Positions 3,085 through 8,933 of a DNA stretch of 9,777 bases are shown piece after piece. The stretch's first letter is position 1; each line of letters starts with the position of its first letter. The notes beneath the pieces were generated by a model. It ran no database searches. It saw only the letters and a program-made list of their open reading frames with translations, and was not told the origin of the DNA. Both the position numbers and the translations under genes were made by a program. This stretch comes from Nitrospinae bacterium RIFCSPLOWO2_12_FULL_45_22 (GTDB lineage: Bacteria > 2-12-FULL-45-22): assembly GCA_001803565.1 (NCBI GenBank), contig MHDQ01000009.1:1-9777 (forward strand), written 5' to 3'.

Positions 3085-3199
3085 TTGTAAGAATGCTAAG
3101 GGTTTATAGGGTAAAGAAAAGGAGGCTTGATAAACCGTTAGCTAGAAAAGATATTAATGAGCCGGGGTCTGGGGAAGCCAGCCCCGGCTTTAATTTTTT
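3085..3199 (+). promoter_or_regulatory. Structured 5' leader of glnE: hairpin plus terminator (possible attenuator or small RNA)
   Basis: Starting about 10 nt after the predicted transcription start, GCTAA-G-GGTTTAT (3095-3107) pairs with ATAAACC-G-TTAGC (3130-3142). This gives a 5-bp plus 7-bp stem with one G-G mismatch and a 22-nt loop that contains AAAAGGAGG (3117-3125). No ATG, GTG or TTG start lies at a usable distance from that AGGAGG. An intrinsic terminator follows at 3161-3199. Promoter, hairpin and terminator together would make a roughly 115-nt RNA, so glnE expression from this promoter needs readthrough. It does not match a riboswitch class I know, including the glnA/glutamine motif. 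Confidence 0.45.
3161..3199 (+). terminator. Intrinsic terminator 16 nt before the glnE start
   Basis: GCCGGGG (3161-3167) pairs with CCCCGGC (3182-3188), and an inner TGG/CCA adds three pairs around a GGAAG loop. The T-rich tract TTTAATTTTTT follows (3189-3199). The glnE ribosome binding site AAAGG (3204-3208) begins 5 nt later, so no separate promoter can fit between terminator and gene. Confidence 0.75.
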
Positions 3200-3214: not shown

Positions 3215-6200
3215 ATGATAGCAATAGCAAATTATGTAGCTAAAAACCTTCATGTTGCAGAAGAACAGAACCTTTTGGAAACCCTGGCTGATCTGGGCTT
3301 CATCGAGACCAAGAAAACCCTCCAAAACTTATACTCATTAGATAGAACGCCGGGGGTTAAGGAGTTAATCCCTCAATTAATAGCCCTGGCCGGGCTCTCT
3401 CCCAACCCTGATTTGGCCCTTATCCACCTGGAACGAGTGATTTCGGCTTATGAAACCGGGGATGGCAGTATCATCCCTGCACTACGAAAAGAAGAAAATC
3501 TTAGGGCCTTAATAATAACCTGTGCTACCAGTCCTGCTTTAGTAAATATTATGATAAGAGATACTGAGGCGCTAGTTTTACTCCTCCAGGATGAAGGTCT
3601 TACAGGAAAGAAGGACGAAGAGGAGATGACCTATGGTTTGCGCCAGCAGGTAAGAAACGCCCTTAAATTCACCGAGCTATGCTCTTCTTTGAGGCGCTAT
3701 AGGAATCGAGAGATACTCAGGATTGGTATGCGGGATTTATCGGGTATGGCCAGCCTGGAGGATACGATGACAGAGCTTTCATCCCTGGCCAGTGCCTGCC
3801 TCCAGGTAGCTTATGAATATATCCTGGCCATGCTGATAGAGCAGTATGGAAGCCCCAGATATACCGATATAGATGGCCAGGAAAAAGAAAGTCAGTTCGT
3901 CATACTGGGTTTGGGTAAGCTCGGGGGGCGGGAGCTAAATTTCAGTTCCGATATAGACCTTATTTATCTCTATTCATCCGATAAAGGAGAAACCAGTGGT
4001 GGGCCAGCCCGCGCCGGTCAATCGCCAGCAAGACTTTCATTGCCTCAGTTCTATACCCGCCTGGCGGAATTAATTACCAGGGCCATTAGTGAGCCTATGG
4101 AAGAAGGGCTGGTCTTTAGAGTAGACCTGCGTTTAAGGCCGGAGGGTTCTAAGGGCAATCTGTCTAATTCATTACGCAGCGCTGAAATATACTATGAATC
4201 CTGGGGACGGCCCTGGGAGCGGGCAGCATTGCTAAAAGCCCGGCCCGTAGCTGGTAATAAAGCGCTAGGAGAGTGTTTCCTCGAGATCGTACAGCCCTTT
4301 ATCTACCGGAAATATCTGGACTATACCATGATAGAAGAGATAAGGGAAATGAAAGAAGAAATTGATCGCCGGGCAGCCCGGGAGGAGCTAAGAGGGAAAA
4401 ACATAAAACTGGGCGCTGGGGGCATCAGAGAGATAGAATTTTTTATCCAGGCTATTCAACTTATCAATAGTGGTAAGGACCCGGCTATTAGAGAATCAAA
4501 TACCCTAAAAGCCCTGGTTAAGCTCAGGGACAGGAAATACTTACAGAACGATGAATACCATGCCCTGGAACAAGCCTATAAATTTCTCCGCCAGGTAGAG
4601 CATAAGATCCAGATCGTCTATTCCAGGCAGACCCACTTATTGCCCAGAAATCCTCATGAGATATTCCGATTAGCCCGGCGTGTAGGCTATAAAGACTCTG
4701 AATCTTTCCTGGCTGATTTGGAAAACCATACCCAACAGGTAAAGGATATCTATAGCCGATTGTTTTATGGTCCTACCCAGGAGATAGAGGAAGGGTTTAA
4801 GGCCGACATATCGGAGCTCTTAAGAGATGATCTTCCTAAAGAAGAGATTCTAGCCCGATTACTGGATTGTGGTTTTAAAGACCCGGTGGGGGCTCAGGGC
4901 CGTTTACGGCTCCTTAGAGAGGGACCACCTTTTGTCCATTTTTCTGCCAGGGCGAATCGCTTATTAAGAAGAGTCAGCCCTATCATACTCCAGGAGCTGA
5001 TAGGAGCGCCAGACCCAGATGCGGCCCTAATAAATCTAGAAGGGTTTCTTTCCACCATAGGGGCCCGGACTACCTTCTTGTCCCTCCTGGCTGAAAACCC
5101 ACCTGTGGTAAAATTACTTGTTCGGTTATTTGGCGGCAGCGACTATCTTGCTCGGCTCTTTATCCATCACCCAGAACTGCTAGACAGCCTGGTGAGGGCC
5201 GATGCTGCAGAGATTAACAAATCCAGGTTAACCATGGCCCAGGAGCTAGAAGAGGCCCTTCAGGGATTAAAAAACTACGAAGATAAGTTGGATGAGCTGC
5301 GGCGGTTTAAGAATGGAGAGACTTTACGACTGGGTATGGCGGCCTTAGCTGGCGAGTTGGACCGTTGCGAAGAGTCCAGGCAGATAACTAATTTAGCTGA
5401 GGTATGCCTGCAAAAAGCTTATGACATTAGTACCCAGGAATTAGAAAAGAAGTACGGCTATCCTTTCTATAAGACGGCCCAGGACCGTACCCGACCCGCT
5501 CAATTGACTATTATAGGCCTGGGGAGATTAGGGGACAGGGAAATGAGTTATAACTCTGACCTGGACATTATCTTTATCTATTCCCATGAAGGAGAAGCCA
5601 TGTCCAATCAAGGCCCAACCATATCTAACCATGAATTGTTTGTAAAGCTGGCCCAAAAGATCATCACTACCCTGAGTTGCCTTACTAAAGAAGGGTATGT
5701 CTTTAAGGTTGATACCCGGCTTCGGCCTTCGGGCAACGCCGGGCCTCTGGTATCATCGCTCCGGGCCTTTCAGCTTTATCATGAAGAAAGGGCCCAGGTA
5801 TGGGAACGGCAGGTACTGCTAAAAAGCCGCTGGGTAGCTGGAGATAAAAAGTTAGGGGCCAGGGTGCTCAAATTGATCCATAGCTCCATTTATCAAAGGC
5901 CGTTGAGTATACAAGAAATTCAGGATGTCCATCGCCTAAGGATGAGGATGGAAGACGAGCTGGCCCAGGAAACGGATACTAAATTTAATCTTAAGTTAGG
6001 CCAGGGGGGCATAATTGATATTCAATTCATTGTTCAACTACTGCAACTAGGATATGGCTATGCTAATAGGCAGATAAGGGAGAGAGATACCGGCAGGGCC
6101 CTAAAGAAATTATATAACCGGGGCATGTTGCCCGAGAAGGATTATTCAGCTCTTGTGGAGGCATGGGAGTTCCTCACCGAAATAGAGAGTAAGATCAGGA

Positions 6201-6379
6201 TCGCTCAGGACCGGTCTTTAGATACCCTGATGGACGATGAGGTTCAATTGGAGGCCCTGGCTAAACGGCTAGCCTACAGTTACCCAGGATCGCCACTGTC
6301 CGGCCAAAAGCTTCTGGAGAAGTATAAGCACCATACCGACCAAGTGCGCCAACTCTACCTCCATTACTTCAGTCAATAG
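3215..6379 (+). CDS. glnE: Bifunctional glutamine synthetase adenylyltransferase / adenylyl-removing enzyme
   Basis: This is a 1054-residue cytoplasmic protein made of two tandem nucleotidyltransferase halves. The N-terminal half has G232-LGKLGGRELNFSSDIDL with D246/D248 and the downstream GGIREIEFFIQ at about 402-412. The C-terminal half has G768-LGRLGDREMSYNSDLDI with D782/D784 and GGIIDIQFIVQ at about 931-941. By homology the N-terminal half removes AMP from, and the C-terminal half adds AMP to, a tyrosine of glutamine synthetase, under control of PII and glutamine. Both acidic pairs are intact, so both activities are expected. The second half has Q937 where this motif normally reads DIEF. 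The protein is about 100 residues longer than the 946-residue E. coli enzyme. The ATG at 3215 is 6 nt after AAAGG. No glnA, glnB or amtB lies in the window. A transposable element sits at its stop codon. Confidence 0.97.
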   Translation: MIAIANYVAKNLHVAEEQNLLETLADLGFIETKKTLQNLYSLDRTPGVKELIPQLIALAGLSPNPDLALIHLERVISAYETGDGSIIPALRKEENLRALIITCATSPALVNIMIRDTEALVLLLQDEGLTGKKDEEEMTYGLRQQVRNALKFTELCSSLRRYRNREILRIGMRDLSGMASLEDTMTELSSLASACLQVAYEYILAMLIEQYGSPRYTDIDGQEKESQFVILGLGKLGGRELNFSSDIDLIYLYSSDKGETSGGPARAGQSPARLSLPQFYTRLAELITRAISEPMEEGLVFRVDLRLRPEGSKGNLSNSLRSAEIYYESWGRPWERAALLKARPVAGNKALGECFLEIVQPFIYRKYLDYTMIEEIREMKEEIDRRAAREELRGKNIKLGAGGIREIEFFIQAIQLINSGKDPAIRESNTLKALVKLRDRKYLQNDEYHALEQAYKFLRQVEHKIQIVYSRQTHLLPRNPHEIFRLARRVGYKDSESFLADLENHTQQVKDIYSRLFYGPTQEIEEGFKADISELLRDDLPKEEILARLLDCGFKDPVGAQGRLRLLREGPPFVHFSARANRLLRRVSPIILQELIGAPDPDAALINLEGFLSTIGARTTFLSLLAENPPVVKLLVRLFGGSDYLARLFIHHPELLDSLVRADAAEINKSRLTMAQELEEALQGLKNYEDKLDELRRFKNGETLRLGMAALAGELDRCEESRQITNLAEVCLQKAYDISTQELEKKYGYPFYKTAQDRTRPAQLTIIGLGRLGDREMSYNSDLDIIFIYSHEGEAMSNQGPTISNHELFVKLAQKIITTLSCLTKEGYVFKVDTRLRPSGNAGPLVSSLRAFQLYHEERAQVWERQVLLKSRWVAGDKKLGARVLKLIHSSIYQRPLSIQEIQDVHRLRMRMEDELAQETDTKFNLKLGQGGIIDIQFIVQLLQLGYGYANRQIRERDTGRALKKLYNRGMLPEKDYSALVEAWEFLTEIESKIRIAQDRSLDTLMDDEVQLEALAKRLAYSYPGSPLSGQKLLEKYKHHTDQVRQLYLHYFSQ

Positions 6380-6386: not shown

Positions 6387-6544
6387 GTAATTGCTCAATA
6401 TTTTATGGGAAAGTAACGATTAAGACTCTTGTCATTCCTGCGGAAGCAGGAATCCAGGTTTTTTTATAATAGGCTATTCTGGATTCCCACTTTCGTGGGA
6501 ATGACAGAATCGAGAATCTATTCCACATGTTATTGAGCAGTTAC
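6387..6544. mobile_element. 158-bp MITE with IS66-like ends
   Basis: The left end GTAATTGCTCAATA (6387-6400) and right end TATTGAGCAGTTAC (6531-6544) are inverted copies with one mismatch in 14. Weaker similarity extends to 27 bp (21 of 27). Identical octamers GATCAATT flank both ends. Ends beginning GTAA together with an 8-bp target duplication are known hallmarks of the IS66 family, so I infer mobilisation in trans by an IS66-type transposase. No transposase gene is in the element or the window. It inserted exactly at the glnE stop without damaging the protein. Confidence 0.75.
6431..6505. repeat. Inverted pair of hairpin-forming 27-bp repeats inside the MITE
   Basis: Copy 1 (6431-6457, beginning GTCATTCC and ending AATCCAG) contains ATTCCTGC-GGAA-GCAGGAAT. 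Copy 2 is its inverted counterpart at 6479-6505 and contains ATTCCCAC-TTTC-GTGGGAAT. The two copies match at 22 of 27 positions, and four of the five differences make two compensated base pairs. This 'GTCATTCC...GGAATCCAG' type of repeat is dispersed in many bacterial genomes. A TTTTTTT tract follows copy 1, so on the + strand it could also act as a terminator for glnE. Confidence 0.65.
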
Positions 6545-6693: not shown

Positions 6694-7083
6694 ATGCAAA
6701 CCAGGGGACAGGTTACCGCAGAACTAAGCAAGGCTATAATAAAGTTTGAAAGGGGACATATGGGTAGAGGGCCCAAAGAGGTCCAGACCCATCTGGTCAA
6801 TGATATGGTAGTGATAAGATTGAAAGGGGTTTTGACGGCCGCTGAGCATAAATTAGCTAGAAACAATGAAGGTATAGACCTAATAAAAAGGGTTAGATCA
6901 AATCTGCTGGAGCATTCCAGGTCATTGCTAGAAGAGATTATTTTTGAAATATTAGGGACCAGGGTTATTAGTATGCATACCGATATAAGTACGAAGACTG
7001 GCGACCGGGTCATTATCTTCATGGTGGAGGAAAATTTAGAGCAAAAATATCCTTGCTCTTCAAAAGAGAAAAAGATAAAATAA
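6694..7083 (+). CDS. MpsC / DUF2294 family protein
   Basis: This is a 129-residue soluble protein without signal peptide or membrane segment. The family signature is clear: an N-terminal helix (EL-x-KAIIKFE), MGRGPKEV at residues 23-30, a strand pair (MVVIRLKGVLT), a long helix (LIKRVRSNLLEHSRSLLEEII) and HTDISTKTGDR at 95-105, ending in a beta strand (VIIFMVEE). The family was formerly DUF2294 and is now named MpsC after a Na+-translocating membrane-potential-generating system. It is often found as a stand-alone small protein of unknown biochemical role, and no mpsA or mpsB homologue is in this window, so a bioenergetic function here is only nominal. The C-terminal 15 residues are lysine-rich and outside the domain. 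A candidate promoter for the next transcription unit overlaps its last codons. Confidence 0.85.
   Translation: MQTRGQVTAELSKAIIKFERGHMGRGPKEVQTHLVNDMVVIRLKGVLTAAEHKLARNNEGIDLIKRVRSNLLEHSRSLLEEIIFEILGTRVISMHTDISTKTGDRVIIFMVEENLEQKYPCSSKEKKIK
7053..7081 (+). promoter_or_regulatory. Candidate promoter for the pckA leader
   Basis: TTGCTC (7053-7058, 3 of 6) and TAAAAT (7076-7081, 5 of 6) are separated by exactly 17 nt. They overlap the 3' end of the MpsC-like gene. Transcription would start around 7087-7090, right at the beginning of the structured RNA below. The -35 element is weak. Confidence 0.35.
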
Positions 7084-7087
7084 GCAA

Positions 7088-7195
7088 CGATTGGCAGACA
7101 AGAGAGGAGGCAGTCCCCTGAAAAGGGGAAGGCAGTCTGTAAGGTAAGCCAACAGCGAATCTTTCACTTGAAGGTTACTGTTGGCTTTTTTATTT
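7088..7195 (+). promoter_or_regulatory. Structured leader with alternative anti-terminator/terminator pairings upstream of pckA
   Basis: TTGGC (7091-7095) can pair with GCCAA (7148-7152), and AGAC (7096-7099) with GTCT (7135-7138). These enclose a TCCCC-TGAAAA-GGGGA hairpin (7114-7129) and unpaired purine-rich segments. GCCAA is also part of the 5' arm of the terminator at 7146-7155, so the two folds exclude each other. That is the architecture of a transcription-attenuating riboswitch or protein-binding leader. GGCAG(A/T)C occurs three times (7093, 7109, 7131). It matches no riboswitch class I know. A simple terminator for the upstream gene with chance complementarity is the alternative. Confidence 0.4.
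7146..7195 (+). terminator. Strong intrinsic terminator between the MpsC-like gene and pckA
   Basis: AAGCCAACAG (7146-7155) pairs with CTGTTGGCTT (7178-7187) over 10 bp. An inner AATCTT/AAGGTT stem (7158-7163 / 7171-7176) continues it, and TTTTTATTTT follows. It ends the MpsC-like transcript and, if the leader interpretation is right, controls readthrough into pckA. Confidence 0.85.
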
Positions 7196-7281
7196 TGGGG
7201 AAAAGTTCATGGCCTTAGGGTACTAAAAGAAAGTTATAGTGAACAGCGGCTAGGAACCAGGCCGGATAATGGTTTTGCTGC

Positions 7282-7296
7282 AAGGAGATGAGGGGG
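7282..7296 (+). promoter_or_regulatory. Ribosome binding site that decides the pckA start
   Basis: GAGGGGG (7290-7296) ends 5 nt before the ATG at 7302, and AAGGAG lies just upstream at 7282-7287. The in-frame ATG at 7269 has no comparable site before it, so 7302 is preferred. Confidence 0.7.
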
Positions 7297-7301
7297 TTAA
7301 C

Positions 7302-8933
7302 ATGGAAGAGATAAAAGGGATTTTGGAGACGATAAAAAATTTGAAGGGTTTACCCAATGTAAAAGAGCCAAGTTTCCAGGCACTAAGGTCCCAGGCAGAG
7401 ATATTTGGGACAGAAACCATATGGGGAAACTACAACTTTGTCTCTACCGTCAAAAATAGATCGGCTGGCCTTACGGTATATACCGGTTCAGATGAGGTGA
7501 TGAATAGGAACTGGTCTGCCCGCCAAAGGGAGATTATTAAAGGGGTGCCGGATACTCTCAGGTTGATTCAAGAATATATAAAGCAAGCACCGTTTATCTA
7601 TGTGAGAAGAAATATGGGGAAGAATAATGTCTTCAGCCCATTATGTAACCTTTTTGTCTCGGTACAGCGAAAGGAGATGATCAGACTGGCCTATATGTGG
7701 GCCCAGACCCTTTCCCCCCCGCTTGATACCCCTGGCCCGCAACAATATCTTGTCTATATACCTGAATGGCAGGAGAAGGACAGGCAGATACTTGTTTTCC
7801 CGGAAGTTAGCACTACCTTTGTATTAGGCTCTGACTATTATGGAGAGTCAAAGAAAGGTCATCTGCGGATGGCCATGTGGAATGTTAAACAGCAGGGTAT
7901 GCTGGGGCTACATGCCGGTTCTAAAATTATTTATGCCAGAGATACTAAAACTAATAATATAAAAAAATATGGTATACTTATCTTTGGTCTTACAGCTACC
8001 GGTAAGACTACCCATTCCTGCCACGACCATGGTCTTGATTTACCTGGTGAGGGGATTGAGATATTGCAAGATGATGTAGTCTTTCTGAGAAAGGATGGTT
8101 CTTGCCTGGGTACCGAGAAGGGTTTTTATCTGAAGACGGAAGGTGTGAATCCCCAAACCCAACCTGTTATCTATCAGGCCGCTACTTCCAGGGATTGCAT
8201 CTTTGAGAATGTCTTTGTTAATTATCGAGGGGAGGTCGATTTCGATAATGAGACCCTCACCAGTAACGGCCGTGGTGTTATGCAGCGGGATGATTTTGGT
8301 AAACTTAAGGGTGAAGATATCAATTTACCACCTGTAGCTGACCTTGATGGTCTGATCATACTATTTATTACCCGGCGCAATAATATTGTCCCAATCCTTT
8401 CTAAATTAAATCTGGAGCAGGCCGCCTGCGCCTTTATGCTGGGTGAGTCTATTGAATCTTCCGGTAGTGACCCCAAAAGGGCGGGCGAGTCTGTTAGGGA
8501 AGTAGGGACGAACCCCTTCATCATCGGCGATTTTGCTGAAGAAGGTAATCGCTTCTATGATATCATAAGCCAATACCCAGAGAAGGTAGAATGTTATTTA
8601 GTTAATACTGGTGGCGTAGGGGAGATAGTAGAACTCCTTGATGATGGGGCCAAGGTAGTTAAGCAAAAGGTCCTCCGGCCAGAAATACCAGAGACAGCAG
8701 CCAATATCAGAAACATTGTCCGGGGTACTATCGAATGGGAAAAGGAGCCTTATTTTGGTACCCTGGTACCCAAAAGAGTTGCTGAAGGTATAGATATTGA
8801 CAAGTTTAATCCCCAAAAATTCTATACCGCTACGCAACTGGAATTATTGATTAATCAGTTGAAAGAAGAGAGGAGGAAATATATGGAGCAGTTCCCCAAA
8901 CTGTATCCTCTAATAGTTAAAGCCTTTAAATAA
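7302..8933 (+). CDS. pckA: Divergent phosphoenolpyruvate carboxykinase (ATP type)
   Basis: This is a 543-residue cytoplasmic enzyme, close to the usual 520-540 of ATP-dependent PEPCK. It interconverts oxaloacetate plus ATP with PEP, CO2 and ADP, linking the TCA cycle and gluconeogenesis. Family landmarks appear in order: YYGESKKG with K184/K185 (E. coli WYGGEMKKG), H204 in LHAGSK (E. coli MHCSAN), the P-loop GLTATGKTT at 229-237 (E. coli GLSGTGKTT), acidic D257/D258 in LQDDVVF, the ENVFVNYRGEVDFD stretch, R324, and YLVNTGG near the end. The metal, phosphate and substrate ligands thus look present, but the surrounding motifs are clearly divergent and the H204-K235 spacing is longer than in E. 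coli (31 against 22). ATP rather than GTP use is inferred from general similarity and should be treated as probable only. The gene has a long leader, and htpX follows after a terminator. Confidence 0.87.
   Translation: MEEIKGILETIKNLKGLPNVKEPSFQALRSQAEIFGTETIWGNYNFVSTVKNRSAGLTVYTGSDEVMNRNWSARQREIIKGVPDTLRLIQEYIKQAPFIYVRRNMGKNNVFSPLCNLFVSVQRKEMIRLAYMWAQTLSPPLDTPGPQQYLVYIPEWQEKDRQILVFPEVSTTFVLGSDYYGESKKGHLRMAMWNVKQQGMLGLHAGSKIIYARDTKTNNIKKYGILIFGLTATGKTTHSCHDHGLDLPGEGIEILQDDVVFLRKDGSCLGTEKGFYLKTEGVNPQTQPVIYQAATSRDCIFENVFVNYRGEVDFDNETLTSNGRGVMQRDDFGKLKGEDINLPPVADLDGLIILFITRRNNIVPILSKLNLEQAACAFMLGESIESSGSDPKRAGESVREVGTNPFIIGDFAEEGNRFYDIISQYPEKVECYLVNTGGVGEIVELLDDGAKVVKQKVLRPEIPETAANIRNIVRGTIEWEKEPYFGTLVPKRVAEGIDIDKFNPQKFYTATQLELLINQLKEERRKYMEQFPKLYPLIVKAFK

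Follow-up and report, generated by a model that had tools for sequence, protein, structure and literature searches.

The mpsC-pckA intergenic region

The window analysed here, that is, the whole stretch of 9,777 nucleotides, is one contig of the draft genome of Nitrospinae bacterium RIFCSPLOWO2_12_FULL_45_22, which comprises 3.67 Mb in 321 contigs and is about 85% complete. The element of interest is surrounded by three genes of the ORF list, all on the plus strand, namely, glnE (3215-6379), an mpsC-like gene (6694-7083) that matches PF10057 (MpsC) with an E-value of 3.6e-38, and pckA (7302-8933), which encodes a PEP carboxykinase of the ATP type (PF01293, E 6.5e-46) and starts at either 7302 or 7269. 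The mpsC-like gene is present in a single copy in this genome, has no recognised mpsA or mpsB partners within the window and gave 0 matches in 14 of the nearest lineages. The closest relatives of pckA, at about 50-64% identity, are scattered across archaea and several bacterial phyla, a distribution that suggests horizontal spread of the PEP carboxykinase; in most of the other genomes searched, the product found a weak match or none. Elsewhere in the window, between glnE and mpsC, an imperfect 28-nt inverted repeat, TGTCATTCCTGCGGAAGCAGGAATCCAG / CTGGATTCCCACTTTCGTGGGAATGACA (6430-6506), has arms that each form a hairpin; as the word GTCATTCC recurs on several other contigs of the same genome, the repeat is perhaps a palindromic one of the dispersed kind. 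Directly 5' of the regulatory gene glnE, a strong hairpin (3159-3190, -25.5 kcal/mol) is followed by a T-rich run and is possibly another terminator.

The 218 nt that separate mpsC from pckA contain, on the plus strand, an intrinsic terminator (7146-7196) that is apparent from its sequence. The arms AAGCCAACAG and CTGTTGGCTT (7146-7155/7178-7187) form a perfect 10-bp inverted repeat around an inner hairpin and are followed by a T-rich tail, and the computed energy of the hairpin is about -19.6 kcal/mol, in agreement with the strong terminator proposed for 7146-7187 in a first-pass annotation of this DNA. The terminator lies 62 nt past the mpsC stop codon and 115 nt before the pckA start, both flanking genes being on its strand, so that it has the position, upstream of a same-strand gene, that an attenuator would require.

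Immediately upstream, beginning 7 nt past the end of mpsC at 7083, the same strand can adopt an alternative fold. The sequence TTGGC (7091-7095) is the 5' strand of a proposed antiterminator stem, P1, the 3' strand of which, GCCAA (7148-7152), is also part of the 5' arm of the terminator. The MFE fold of 7088-7152 has an energy of -26.2 kcal/mol and consists, in order, of P1, the short stacks AC/GU, AGG/UCU and GC/GC with internal loops, and then a UCCCCU-GAAA-AGGGGA hairpin (7114-7129); the inner stack of this structure, from AGG/UCU inward (7105-7138, plus strand), includes two symmetric AG/AG internal loops. The hairpin UCCCCUGAAAAGGGGA by itself accounts for -10.6 of the -26.2 kcal/mol. 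The letters named in the first-pass annotation (TTGCTC, TAAAAT, TTGGC, GCCAA, the GGGG/CCCC hairpin and the repeats) are all present where it placed them, and its proposal that TTGGC pairs with GCCAA, which the 5' arm of the terminator also needs, holds in silico, the two folds being mutually exclusive.

Folding was computed at equilibrium for each transcript length, which is not a kinetic simulation, and in these calculations the probability of P1 is 1.0 for transcripts with 3' ends at 7152-7180 and 0.85 at 7184, and at 7188 the terminator has taken its place. A competing CAGAC/GUCUG pairing prevails only in transcripts that are still too short for P1 and in those that already have the terminator. 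The transcript that ends at 7187 has an energy of -38.8 kcal/mol with the terminator versus -33.8 kcal/mol with P1 forced, so that, once its 3' arm has been made, the terminator is more stable than the P1 fold by about 5 kcal/mol. Therefore the terminator should win unaided, and stabilisation of the first fold by some factor would make an ON switch.

Comparison with chance expectation

To calibrate these observations, we used a control set of 48 intergenic terminator-like hairpins from 740 kb of the same genome, for which 60 further contigs were read. The 5' arm has at least 5 bases paired upstream at P>0.5 in 21 of the 48 (in 13 of them at P of at least 0.8), and the arm is likewise paired upstream in 22/55 when hairpins inside genes are included. 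Exclusive pairing of a terminator arm is ordinary in this genome, and the mutually exclusive antiterminator fold, although present before pckA, accordingly discriminates poorly.

The stability of the segment upstream of the terminator, by contrast, is exceptional for this genome. The 60 nt before the pckA terminator together with seven bases of its arm yield a z-score of -3.99, the first of the 48, the next being -1.85, and only this terminator combines z < -2.5 with pairing of the arm. When genes were masked less strictly, in a smaller set, one other hairpin, L083 203-246, has an equally low upstream energy, but its arm is unpaired upstream. Depending on the stretch and the type of shuffle, z varies from -3.7 to -5.5; among random 69-nt stretches of the genome (n=1594), 0.06% reach the z-score of 7084-7152 and 0.7% reach its energy. 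When the central hairpin is kept and both flanks are shuffled, 17/2000 sequences (0.0085) reach -26.2 kcal/mol, and 36/2000 (0.018) reach the observed energy when the inner stack is kept and the outer parts alone are shuffled; these fractions of roughly 1-2%, which, like the stability statistics, are post hoc and pertain to one chosen place, imply that the outer pairing contributes something beyond the strong central hairpin.

Two further features to which the first-pass annotation drew attention carry less weight. The candidate promoter TTGCTC-N17-TAAAAT (TTGCTC 7053-7058, TAAAAT 7076-7081), within the 3' end of mpsC, is there to the letter but is weak: it matches 8/12 consensus positions, falls below the promoter-scan threshold and is equalled in 64 of the 194 (33%) AT-matched 48-nt stretches. 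Neither the promoter scan nor consensus scoring found a good promoter before the structured element. The triple repeat GGCAG(A/T)C (GGCAGAC at 7093, GGCAGTC at 7109 and 7131) is genuine and rare for that word, with 0 other GGCAGWC clusters on both strands of 526 kb; its weight is nevertheless small, given that 20% of random 60-nt stretches hold three copies of some 7-mer when up to 1 mismatch is allowed.

Search for relatives and known classes

The host genome is one of two genomes of its phylum that were compared, and the second (68% complete) contained no close pckA, no mpsC match and no match to the model described below. Homologues of pckA, from 25 named loci and six further genomes, belong to archaea, Planctomycetota, Omnitrophota, Zipacnadia, Aminicenantes, Deltaproteobacteria and others; they are at most 64% identical, and the nearest of them belong to phyla other than that of the host. 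Comparison of the 31 pckA upstream regions with 7080-7200 revealed nothing beyond common words of 9-10 nt, most of these regions are without a candidate terminator, and in none of these relatives' pckA loci was mpsC found to adjoin pckA. Among the loci compared, the association of the element with pckA is seen in this genome only.

No second copy was detected in the genome itself, either by BLAST or with a covariance model, R1, which was built from the one sequence and recovers itself at 101 bits; the best further match in the same genome (16.8 bits) falls within an ORF of 562 aa and was discarded. Across 386 genomes R1 found nothing beyond chance, the best other match having 22 bits and an E-value of 0.015 per genome, which is expected by chance in a search of that many genomes. 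Most of the matches in other genomes are located within long open frames; none resembles a leader with a terminator. The nearest 16S lineages (87% and below) and their small phyla, as well as phages and plasmids, likewise yielded no match to the element. Because a model made from one sequence has little power to detect distant relatives, what these results show is the lack of a widespread near copy, not that of a diverged class.

The first-pass annotation recognised no known class, in agreement with our searches: within the window, no Rfam 15 family reached its gathering threshold, permissive matches were far below gathering and not credible, and ARAGORN found no tRNA or tmRNA. The permissive match to the PyrR binding site (RF00515; 15.8 bits against a gathering threshold of 54, E 8.1) was rejected; the likeness consists in a purine-rich GAGAGG word 5' of the terminator, whereas the downstream gene, pckA, is not pyrimidine-related. 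Inspection by eye eliminated TRAP/HutP-type repeats and CsrA sites, the spacing or copy number of which does not fit, and the T-box, for which there was neither a recognisable T-box sequence nor an Rfam match. Literature titles and abstracts contained nothing relevant on pckA and riboswitches or on DUF2294, and a narrow full-text search found no paper that combines PEP carboxykinase with transcription attenuation, terminator and leader.

In its layout, the pckA element resembles terminator-type (ON) riboswitches and attenuators, in which the closing stem of a structured 5' segment takes bases of the terminator 5' arm and a same-strand metabolic gene lies downstream; it differs from them in being one sequence without a demonstrated conserved aptamer, a ligand or an Rfam family. 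It also resembles intergenic motifs of the HRC-28-1 type, which combine a structured segment and an intrinsic terminator between genes and share the ambiguity between a leader and a 3' UTR; the authors of the terminator-ended HRC-28-1 suggest that it may belong to the 3' UTR of the gene upstream of it (PMC8632094). Published screens base each motif on numerous representatives and on covariation (PMC8632094), and a consensus model and numerous representatives are available for motifs of this type, in contrast to the one sequence at pckA.

Interpretation

We consider it plausible, though somewhat short of probable, that 7091-7196 is a terminator-type transcription attenuator in the 5' leader of pckA. 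The polymerase would reach the element by readthrough from mpsC or from a nearby promoter, and the RNA of 7091-7152 would immediately adopt a closed, stacked stem that comprises P1 and the inner hairpin. Unless the first fold is held, the hairpin 7146-7187 would displace it and transcription would end before pckA; if a bound factor (a protein, a metabolite or a ribosome) stabilised the first fold, pckA would be transcribed. The default state would be off, with the factor turning pckA on. Termination at this site, its regulation and the role of pckA as the target are all inferred. Three observations favour the attenuator: the outlying stability, the geometry and the presence of an enzyme gene on the same strand. 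The case is weakened because no search recovered a homologue and hence there is no covariation, because terminator arms paired upstream are common, because one hairpin supplies much of the stability, because a terminator this close to the mpsC stop is where a plain terminator is expected, and because the element is without a good promoter before it.

The first-pass annotation had suggested a riboswitch or an attenuator, and it is the attenuator that fits the exclusive folds and the exceptional stability. The riboswitch is unsupported because a single representative offers neither a conserved core nor covariation nor an association with a gene; as a part of the attenuator reading, a metabolite riboswitch is a guess and, in our opinion, an unlikely one. 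Similarly unlikely is its more specific form, an undescribed riboswitch class, confined to a barely sampled phylum, that would sense a central-carbon or energy metabolite and activate pckA through antitermination.

The attenuator is nearly balanced by a simpler explanation, the probability of which we put only slightly lower (such probabilities are a matter of judgement and were not calculated), namely, that the hairpin 7146-7187 merely ends the mpsC transcript, the upstream hairpin being a neutral or RNA-stabilising feature of the 3' UTR, and that pckA is transcribed from a separate promoter in 7190-7290. The usual placement of the terminator behind mpsC, the frequency of exclusive pairing by chance (21/48; 22/55) and the rarity of such an element at pckA elsewhere, with no conservation, all favour an ordinary boundary of this kind. 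However, within this genome the fold 5' of the terminator stands out for its stability, and P1 with the inner stack exceeds shuffled sequences. Nor did the promoter scan and consensus scoring find a convincing promoter in 7190-7290; a 9/12 promoter-like site, TGAACA-N19-GATAAT, which starts at 7240 and has a long spacer, counts in favour of this explanation.

Two other possibilities appear distinctly improbable, the second even more so than the first. A compact structured segment with a terminator at its end could be a small RNA (7088-7196, about 100 nt) that would act in trans and be unlinked to pckA, whether transcribed from a promoter of its own or released by cleavage from the 3' end of the mpsC mRNA, but the promoter is weak, and the segment is single-copy, with no Rfam match and no homologue. 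Leader-peptide attenuation would involve a ribosome that reads CTG-AAA-AGG-GGA-AGG-CAG-TCT-GTA-AGG-TAA (7118-7147, plus strand; LKRGRQSVR) and, on stopping at 7145-7147, covers the 5' arm of the terminator. This possible but unlikely ORF has a well-spaced AGGAGG (7105-7110) seven nt before it and a stop codon immediately 5' of GCCAA; against it, a CTG start is rare, purine-rich SD-like words are common, nothing evident connects its three AGG (Arg) codons with pckA, and it has no homologue.

For screens of this kind, a terminator arm that pairs upstream is common and alone is weak evidence of a switch, and a strong stability outlier 5' of a terminator is the better flag. If readthrough into pckA is indeed regulated, the element would place attenuation control at the gluconeogenic node.
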